The translations under genes were made by a program, and so were the position numbers. DNA of 64,000 nt from Methanolobus sp. (GTDB lineage: Archaea > Halobacteriota > Methanosarcinia > Methanosarcinales > Methanosarcinaceae). The DNA is taken from contig NZ_JADQBY010000008.1 in the NCBI RefSeq assembly GCF_016278385.1, positions 62,001-126,000 of the forward strand. The letters run 5' to 3'. This document shows, piece after piece, positions 15,215-18,054 of this stretch. Position 1 is the stretch's first letter, and each line of letters opens with the position of its first letter. The notes under the pieces were generated by a model that worked only from the letters and a program-made list of their open reading frames with translations, had not been told where the DNA came from and ran no database searches.

Positions 15215-15357
15215 CTCTATTATAGCTGATCCAATATGATTTCTATTTTTTCCTGTGCATTGTGCATAGTACTATGTAAAAAGTACATCATAATTATTAT
15301 GGTGATTAGATATCGAAGTGTAGATATATTTATATAGTATGTATTATTAGTAGGAGT

Positions 15358-15535
15358 TGTCACATAAGACGCGTGTGGCTAAATGTCCCAAATGGTACGA
15401 TATGGACATTATTTACCCGCCTAAAACGGAATTGGATTGCACAGGAATGTGGACTACAGGTACTTCCCCCTCAGTACCTAAAAAAACGTATGCACACATA
15501 AGTCCACATTCCATCCATTAAATCGTTCCAGTGGA
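15358..15535 (+). ncRNA. Candidate structured RNA (nested inverted repeats)
   Basis: A TATA-like box (ATTTATATA, 15328-15336) would start transcription near 15358. Downstream are AATGTCC/GGACATT (15382-15388 with 15404-15410) and a 12-bp perfect inverted repeat, GGAATGTGGACT/AGTCCACATTCC (15444-15455 with 15501-15512). Nested in the latter is a 7-bp hairpin AGGTACT/AGTACCT (15458-15464 with 15473-15479) with an 8-base C-rich loop. There is no convincing reading frame. The structure is plain in the sequence; that it is transcribed as an RNA is inference, and a small transposon-derived repeat is an alternative. Confidence 0.4.
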
Positions 15536-15543
15536 GTATGAGC

Positions 15544-15577
15544 AAAAAAGGATTGCATTCCGATTTAAACGGAATGC
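15544..15577 (-). terminator. Terminator of the 818-aa TPR gene
   Basis: GCATTCCG (15555-15562) and CGGAATGC (15570-15577) form an 8-bp perfect stem with a 7-base AT loop. On the minus strand this lies 20 bases past the TPR stop codon and is followed by six T residues (15549-15544), an intrinsic-type terminator. Confidence 0.65.
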
Positions 15578-15597
15578 GGGGTTATTGTCGCTTCCCT

Positions 15598-18054
15598 CTA
15601 TTCAACGCCATTTTCTATTTTTCTGGCATTTTCATACATCCATATAGCGTCTTCTTTCCTTCCCATGAGTTCCAACACATATCCCAGATTCTCAAGTGTT
15701 ATGGTGACATTGGCACGGTATGACTTATTCTCTGGCTCTGCTTCCATTATTTCCCCGTATGATTTCAGGGCATTCTCATAACTCTTCTTTGCTTCTGCAT
15801 GCATCTTCATATTAAGGAAAAGAGCTCCCATTCCATCCAGGACACCGGCATAATCCAGCTGGTATTCCATACTGGAAGGATTTGAATCTATTAATACCCT
15901 GTAAGTTTCAAGCGATGTCTCATATCTGGTTTTTGCCTCATCGCCGTCACTGACACTTGCTGCAAGTTCTGCTATCCTTGTATGTATCGCTGCAGTTCTT
16001 TCAAGAGGGTAAACGCTCTCCGGTTCGAGTTCTGAAAGGTCGGCATATGCATCAAGTGCATAGGTATACATGTTACCTGCCTCTTCCGTCTCTCCTTTTT
16101 CAGAGAGCATCTGGGCAATATTTTCGATGATCGATGCTCTGTTTCCGGCAATCAAAGCATTGTTAACCATTGTTTCCATAAGTTTGTTGTATCTTGAAAG
16201 CAGAAATTCCAATACTTCAAGTTTCTTTGCAGATTGCTGCCCGCCAGCAGATATCTTAATTTTTTCAAGCAGCTTTACTATTTTAGGCAGGTATGTGTTT
16301 GTGTTATCTGTTTCCTGAAGTTGCTCATATGCCTGAAGTGCTTCTCTGTTCTGTCCCATTGCGACCATTATATCTGCTATCTTTTCCTGGAGCACCTTTA
16401 TTCTGTAGGTGTTTTTTCCCTGTTCGTCAGGCATCAGTCCAAGAAGCTCGGTTCTGGACTCAATTATCTTCTCGTACTCTTTTTTCAGGACATCCACATT
16501 TCCTGTATTATCTGCAATTTTTTCTTTATCAATTAGTATCTCATCAATACTTTCAGCGTATTTCCTATTAAGAGACCCTGCTTTTACAATCTGCATATAA
16601 ATCTTCAATGCCTCATCGATATGTCCAAGATTGCTCTGCATATGTGCCATACTTTCCAGAACATCATTCATTTTGGACCTTTCCCCGGTTGCATGTCTGA
16701 CTGTTTCATAGGTATGGAGTGCCTTTTTGAAATATACAAGGGCTTCTGAATATTCTCTTTTTTCAGCAAGTATCCTGCCTGTTTTGTTGCATATTCCTGC
16801 ATTTATCAGTCCAATCTCAAGGTTTTCCTCACCAATTTCCTTTATTTCATGTCCAAGTCTACTGTATAGTTCAAGTTTTGTACTGCTGTCTTCTACTACA
16901 CCGATAAGTGCCAGCATATCTTCTATAAAGGATATGGCTACCTGCAGGGAAGAACTGTCTTCTTTTTCCTTTTCAAGAACCTGAACTGCAATACCCACGG
17001 ATTCTTCCATCTTTGGTATTGCTTCATTAACTTTGCCTGTGTCCTTTAGCAGGTTTCCTATTATATTAAGAGCGAAAGCCACATTCAGCTGATAAGACGT
17101 ATTGTCTGGCATAGATACCAGCAGCTTTCTGGACATTTGAAGTATCACTCCGTACATTTCCAACAACTTCTCAGACTGCTCCACATTTTCCAGGAGCCTG
17201 TTCATATCCCTGAGAATGTCGATAAGCATTTTTTTGTTTTCAGGATCATCAGGCTTGTCATCAAACTGCTTTGAAACGATTTCCAGTGCTTCTTCAAGTT
17301 TCATGAATGCAGCATCAGTATTTCCTTCTTTTTCACGCATGTGGGCAATATTTCGCAAGGCTGTAGACATTTTAAGCGACCCCTTGTTATTAGCATTTAT
17401 TTCTGCATACTGTTCCAGTAATTCCATATATCTTTCTTCTTCAATCCCGGATGTATCATCCAGAGGAATATTCAGAAGGTTTTCAAGTATCGTGGCTCTT
17501 TTTTGCTGGTATTCGGTTTCTTCGTTACTTCCAGTTGCTCTTGCATGGAGATTAAAAGCTTCTTCCAGCGTATCCAGAGCTTCTCCATTCCTTCCTATTT
17601 CTGCAAGCAGCGCACCCATGTTGTTTAGTGTTGATACAGCGTTCGAGATATGTGATGCGCTTGAAGTTTCCTCTTTGATTAGTTCCCTGTAGTTTTGAGC
17701 AGATATCTTGTATTTTTCCCTGGCCTCTTCTTTCTTTCCTGCATTCTCCAGCGCCAGTGCCATATTACTGAACATATTTGCTTTTTGTTCAAGAGACATA
17801 TAGTTCGGGTTCTTTTCAAGGATATCAGATGCCGCAAGGTATCTATTAAGTGCTTCCTCTTTTTTATCATGCGCAAATAACAGGTCTGCATATGTCTGCA
17901 ATACTGCGATCTGTATCTGAGGTGAGTCTGCTTCATTTGCCTGTTCTTCAGCTCGTTGCAGTGTCTCAAGTGCATCTTCATGCAGTCCTTTCTCAATGAG
18001 GCTTACTCCTTTGTTGAAGTGCCTGAATGCTATATCTCTTGCTCTTTTGGACAT
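15598..18054 (-). CDS. Large cytoplasmic TPR protein, 818 aa
   Basis: Tandem tetratricopeptide repeats run from about residue 9 to the C-terminus, with the usual G/A/L..Y..A....P spacing: AFRHFNKGVSLIEKGLHEDALE, EEALNRYLAASDILEKNP, NEAIPKMEESVGIA and MEAEPENKSYRANVTITLENLGYVLELMGRKEDAI. There is no signal peptide, membrane helix or fused catalytic domain. Such proteins are protein-protein scaffolds; the partner is unknown. The minus-strand leader at 18055-18167 is AT-rich. A second, exported TPR protein and a third small one lie within the next 6 kb. Confidence 0.85.
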   Translation of the reverse strand: MSKRARDIAFRHFNKGVSLIEKGLHEDALETLQRAEEQANEADSPQIQIAVLQTYADLLFAHDKKEEALNRYLAASDILEKNPNYMSLEQKANMFSNMALALENAGKKEEAREKYKISAQNYRELIKEETSSASHISNAVSTLNNMGALLAEIGRNGEALDTLEEAFNLHARATGSNEETEYQQKRATILENLLNIPLDDTSGIEEERYMELLEQYAEINANNKGSLKMSTALRNIAHMREKEGNTDAAFMKLEEALEIVSKQFDDKPDDPENKKMLIDILRDMNRLLENVEQSEKLLEMYGVILQMSRKLLVSMPDNTSYQLNVAFALNIIGNLLKDTGKVNEAIPKMEESVGIAVQVLEKEKEDSSSLQVAISFIEDMLALIGVVEDSSTKLELYSRLGHEIKEIGEENLEIGLINAGICNKTGRILAEKREYSEALVYFKKALHTYETVRHATGERSKMNDVLESMAHMQSNLGHIDEALKIYMQIVKAGSLNRKYAESIDEILIDKEKIADNTGNVDVLKKEYEKIIESRTELLGLMPDEQGKNTYRIKVLQEKIADIMVAMGQNREALQAYEQLQETDNTNTYLPKIVKLLEKIKISAGGQQSAKKLEVLEFLLSRYNKLMETMVNNALIAGNRASIIENIAQMLSEKGETEEAGNMYTYALDAYADLSELEPESVYPLERTAAIHTRIAELAASVSDGDEAKTRYETSLETYRVLIDSNPSSMEYQLDYAGVLDGMGALFLNMKMHAEAKKSYENALKSYGEIMEAEPENKSYRANVTITLENLGYVLELMGRKEDAIWMYENARKIENGVE

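Follow-up and report, generated by a model that had tools for sequence, protein, structure and literature searches.

A predicted multi-copy small-RNA family of Methanolobus with a two-site 3′ tail complementary to a conserved C-rich RNA

The predicted small-RNA locus in the window

The window (the whole 64,000-nucleotide stretch of Methanolobus DNA under analysis) carries on its plus strand a block of promoter elements and hairpins which sequence comparison supports as a small-RNA gene, predicted to extend from ~15352 to 15600 and to give a transcript of ~240 nt. A BRE/TATA promoter (TAGATATATTTATATAG, 15321..15337), nearly invariant in the family alignment A1, is preceded by an upstream box at approximately 15287..15313, which was delimited by alignment A1 and by the consensus of 96 family members and is a candidate “cold box”. 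Judged by the usual archaeal TATA spacing, the transcript would start around 15352-15358.

Both the fold of the locus and the A2 consensus fold place a 5′ hairpin (15359..15379) at the beginning of the predicted transcript, followed by a hairpin with a 7-bp stem (15382..15410; arms 15382-15388/15404-15410). The latter displays GGTACGAT (15394-15401), which resembles a ribosome-binding site followed by ATG; among the family members compared, no conserved reading frame was found after it. The main helix, assigned by covariation, is a perfect 12-bp inverted repeat (15444..15512; arms 15444-15455/15501-15512) and encloses an inner 7-bp hairpin recognised from the sequence (15458-15464/15473-15479), the loop of which (TCCCCCTC, 15465-15472) is of the C-rich kind enriched in the family. 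Downstream stand site 1 (GTGGAGTATGAGC, 15531..15543), exactly complementary to the 3′ arm and tail found in a second RNA, here called the hub; a variable spacer hairpin with an 8-bp stem (15555..15577; arms 15555-15562/15570-15577) separating the two sites; and the conserved site 2 (GGGGTTATTGTC, 15578..15589), an exact complement of part of the hub loop. All these features are on the plus strand, as is the T-rich probable 3′ end (15590..15625), which overlaps the end of a TPR gene on the opposite strand.

The plus strand of the region 15350-15590 folded to -69.1 kcal/mol (z -2.95), and 2/200 shuffled sequences folded equally well; the minus strand also folded (z -2.5), as expected of inverted repeats. 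The hairpin arms and the TATA-like box named in the original prediction were all present where it had placed them, the unit itself starting further upstream, with the box, and continuing beyond the former limit of 15577 through site 2. The last 8-bp stem had been read as the end of the TPR gene as well; it lies beyond the stop codon of that gene (gene end 15598), and, since the promoter and all the conserved motifs have plus-strand orientation, the block is unlikely to be the folded end of the TPR transcript. The alternative pairing of GGAATG/CATTCC cores, proposed as a mark of a switching RNA, is possible in the window copy and is no family feature: complements of at least 7 nt between the last hairpin and the core occurred in 12/70 members against 10.6 expected from shuffles, and on this chance-level figure a riboswitch-like pairing was rejected. 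No Rfam match above the gathering score was obtained for the window locus.

A diverged RNA family with a shared promoter

When the genome of the window was searched at the DNA level, the promoter stretch recurred, and contig C33 was found to hold a second copy that has the core as well as the promoter. The same search returned at least a promoter-region match in 27/27 genomes of the genus, with long alignments over the window copy in ~15 of the 27, most of which continued into the same downstream TPR gene. A sequence-only model (R1), built from 28 chosen sequences, matched in all 27 genus genomes with 4-12 matches each, 11 of them in the window's genome, and in 61/111 genomes of the wider family. 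Matches below ~60 bits often comprised the promoter only, and strong ones were confined to Methanolobus and one genome of a neighbouring genus. Since R1 stops at the first GGAGTATGAG, site 1 adds slightly to the score and site 2 lies outside the model. In genome G006, four strong members and several weaker ones were found; of the 15 matches that the model gave there at E≤1, about seven, judged by eye and with the hub among them, resemble such RNAs, while several correspond to the promoters of genes for small proteins.

In a genome-wide pattern scan, 13/16 matches had the whole architecture, and these came from Methanolobus or a Methanosarcinaceae bin. The other three, from bacteria (two Lachnospiraceae, one Sphaerochaeta), had neither promoter nor architecture and were taken as chance. 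No match was found in the viral contigs searched. For the analyses below, 96 members were used, i.e. retrieved loci that scored at least 40, were at least 300 bases long and had a model start no later than position 30, with one member per distinct core, so that the set is a selection rather than a full census; six representatives (L071, L074, L077, L081, L082, L204) stem from motif-pattern searches.

The structure is conserved, and the main 12-bp helix covaries strongly across the family. In an alignment built without regard to structure, 90.1% of the cells in this helix were paired, and double changes were observed in nine of eleven pairs. There were 41 double-change cells against 11.5 +/- 3.3 in shuffles, a count reached by 0/500 shuffles, and sliding the partner by 1-3 columns lowered the pairing to 26-48%. 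Over the matching region z was below zero in 95/96 members (median -2.9). A C-rich stretch within the helix region was present in 78/96 members against 26.9 in shuffles, the conserved loop reading UCCCCUC, and the spacer between the tail sites folded below -3 kcal/mol in 69/70 members with differing sequences. As a predicted transcript, each family RNA is composed of a GGUACGAU hairpin, a long helix that covaries and carries a C-rich loop, and a two-site 3′ tail. The small-RNA reading of the original prediction is backed by this covariation together with the conserved promoter and the orthologs and paralogs throughout the genus.

The upstream box and TATA are common to all family copies, the consensus of the 96 members being TCAT.AT.ATgAT.cTcATtATATA, then TAgATATATTTATATAg, and a box of the same type lies upstream of the hub gene. 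In Methanolobus psychrophilus R15, nine “cold box” sRNAs have been described that are highly conserved, are induced by cold and have a box ahead of their promoters (Li et al. 2015, PMC5378194). Those sRNAs resemble the present family in belonging to Methanolobus, in being intergenic with several conserved copies and in the presence of a conserved motif upstream of the promoters, which for the 96 members is a likeness of placement. In the text the R15 sRNAs are described without sequences or structures, and neither tail sites nor a partner RNA are mentioned (PMC5378194). Matched by description, the family very probably is that of the published cold-induced sRNAs, and we think, on the same descriptive ground, that the window gene is orthologous or paralogous to them. 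The RNA class has in part been reported in 2015 (PMC5378194), and the tail sites and partner RNA are new here. From the candidate box, the RNAs and their circuit are probably switched on by cold.

Box and TATA also precede the gene of a small C..C / C..HC protein in two species (L160, G000 C15:33654-33798 minus; L161, G006:691501-691689 minus), and GGGTTATTGTC occurs in the 5′ leader of this gene in G006 (L161). The same promoter type was found in both genomes before two further small conserved proteins (L158/L155 and L164/L157; G000 C52:73523 and C49:53769, G006:422164 and 1883047), one with no Pfam match and the other with a weak coiled-coil match only. The box may therefore govern a regulon that includes mRNAs too. 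At a further locus (L008:1480-1960, G000 C20:34585), two similar short genes stand in tandem, both preceded by ATGATTAATCATGATAAAT and a TATA; their apparent product is a small peptide with MTE as its first residues.

Tail sites and the complementary hub RNA

The 3′ tail consists of GUGGAGUAUGAGC (site 1), the variable hairpin and GGGGUUAUUGUC (site 2). Both sites were identified in 71/96 members, in invariable order, and in 65/90 when the six motif-pattern representatives are left aside; the remaining 25/96, including a sub-family without either, lack one or both. Conservation drops at the ends of both sites. One member (L023 in G011, identical to L080) has four tandem GGGTTATTGTC and two GTGGAGTATGAGCAAAA at its 3′ end.

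In each of four genomes searched for the tail motifs there was one place where both stand 25 bases apart, on the strand opposite a box-plus-TATA promoter. The RNA predicted from this promoter, the hub (GAUGAGCGGGUUAUCCUCUUUUUGACAAUAACCCCCACUCCCCAACCCGCUCAUACUCCACUCC), is ~66 nt long, single-copy and encoded elsewhere in the genome (in G006 at G006:C1:2721945-2722008, minus strand). Its fold has a ~12-bp stem and leaves both the C-rich loop and the 3′ tail open (z -4.3, equalled by 0/200 shuffles). The hub is present in 27/27 genus genomes with 95-100% identity over the matched 61-75 nt, and both antisense segments are exact at 26/27 loci, the remaining locus falling outside the search pattern. 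Among the 26 loci fitting the pattern, the box was found in 25 and the TATA in 25, with 0 on the other strand.

Site 2 complements the open loop of the hub (GACAAUAACCCC), and site 1 the hub's 3′ tail together with an arm of the stem (GCUCAUACUCCAC); the order of the sites is that required for simultaneous antiparallel pairing. The longest exact complement to the hub reached at least 11 nt in 78/96 members, compared with 1/96 when shuffled. Mean cofold gain was -27.6 kcal/mol with the hub, -10.8 with a C-rich paralog and -16.0 with shuffled hubs; the hub surpassed the paralog in 71/71 members and all ten shuffles in 61/71, and in 10/71 the gain failed to beat all shuffles. One hub sequence, that of the window's genome, served for all members in the complement-length and cofold tests. 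The tails have in this way the extended, specific complementarity to an sRNA that marks a sponge.

C-rich hairpin relatives of the hub are distributed more widely than the sites, in 99/111 family genomes and 12/14 genera, and at the loci sampled outside Methanolobus and genus g11 they mostly do not contain the segments complementary to the sites. Pattern searches of five g11 genomes returned the hub and no partner RNA with both sites: site 1 occurred only at hub loci, and site-2-like matches occurred at hubs and isolated places. As g11 has a hub for which no partner with matching sites was found, the hub must have another role too. Within Methanolobus, hub and sites are both nearly invariant, and compensatory changes linking the two could not be shown for that reason. 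The hub and paralog loci scanned gave no Rfam match.

Across Methanosarcinaceae genera there is a conserved C-rich RNA that forms a hairpin and contains the repeat ACCCC(C)ACUCCC two or three times (GUGAGCGGG...CCCGCUCAC; L260, L261, L262, L264, L267, L276, L277), with no Rfam match at the loci scanned.

Possible roles and comparison with known systems

We consider it likely that the window gene encodes a trans-acting sRNA of ~240 nt from a multi-copy Methanolobus family with a shared box, that its tail pairs with the hub, and that the RNAs of the family act as sponges. In the circuit we propose, the C-rich loop of the hub would mask G-rich ribosome-binding sites, e.g. those complementary to CCCCCACUCCCC, and the hub loop and tail would be open toeholds for the family RNAs. 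Site 2 would pair with the hub loop and site 1 with the hub tail and stem arm, colinear and antiparallel, with the spacer hairpin holding the two sites together, and pairing at site 1 would displace the hub stem and so open the hairpin. Captured in the cold by many such sponges, the hub would release translation. The complete scheme, a cold-induced RNA-only circuit in which about ten diverged sRNA copies capture one hub by two-part docking and free ribosome-binding sites, is put forward tentatively. Of the two directions of control, we prefer the one in which the family RNAs capture the hub; the wider distribution of the hub kind agrees with the hub being the older regulator, the family RNAs having been matched to it later.

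That reverse direction, in which the family RNAs are themselves regulators through C-rich anti-ribosome-binding-site loops and the hub is an antisense RNA titrating or destabilising them, is a less likely but serious alternative. It is suggested by the conserved UCCCCUC loop (78/96 members against 26.9 in shuffles) and by Methanosarcina mazei sRNA154 and sRNA41, described as masking ribosome-binding sites (PMC5867862). Against it stands the C-rich hairpin family of the hub, which in its 99/111 genomes is apparently older than the sites, so that the hub probably functions without them.

Unlikely is a CsrB-like role in which the tail motifs and the GGUACGAU hairpin are binding sites for a protein, e.g. 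a cold-induced RNA chaperone, and the hub is only a decoy. The motifs are nearly invariant and in some members repeated, with up to four tandem GGGUUAUUGUC, as such sites might be; both nevertheless complement, exactly and in colinear order, a single conserved RNA that has a promoter of its own, and we know of no protein for either motif.

The gene at L087:4125-5231 (G000 C45), ~1.3 kb from one family member, encodes a protein that has a ribonuclease III domain and also a weak match for double-stranded RNA binding. The ribonuclease III domain is, to our knowledge, unusual for archaea. It matched above the cut-off in 19/27 genus genomes against 27/27 for the RNAs, and RNase III was rejected as an obligate partner.

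The element GGUGGUACGAUAUG, found at 15394-15404 of the window and in many members, resembles a strong ribosome-binding site with a start codon. That it starts a short peptide, making the RNAs small mRNAs, is improbable: ATG directly follows the element in 55/96 members, and M. mazei sRNA154 has been proposed as dual-function (PMC11456600), yet the frames range from 1 to 93 codons, shift between orthologs and are a bare start-stop in five members. A conserved peptide was rejected, as the reading frame is not kept. With start followed by stop in those five, the element could be a ribosome decoy.

A degenerate mobile repeat, one of the readings in the original prediction, can practically be dismissed: several scattered copies per genome were indeed found, yet they are divergent, covarying and each driven by its own promoter, the window copy has the TPR gene as its neighbour in relatives too, and no near-identical copies were found at non-syntenic places.

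For archaeal sRNA regulation there are few worked examples, and the sponge reading, with a shared promoter box, a docking site and a single partner, would offer a compact, testable circuit that could explain the concerted action of numerous sRNAs that are co-induced in the cold. M. mazei sRNA154 and sRNA41, for which a review describes masking of ribosome-binding sites, share anti-ribosome-binding-site loops as the mode of action, and differ, by their description there, in not being a multi-copy family with a common complementary RNA (PMC5867862). In searches of the open-licence literature, no paper was listed on an archaeal sponge circuit, on the hub or on the sites in the tail. Titrating RNAs of the CsrB/RsmZ type carry repeated short motifs within one RNA, as do the family RNAs, whose motifs by contrast complement an RNA, with no CsrA-type protein implicated. 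Bacterial sponge RNAs capture another regulatory sRNA through base pairing; in comparison with these, the system proposed here is archaeal, comprises about ten apparently co-regulated copies, and has a bipartite site arranged around a spacer hairpin.
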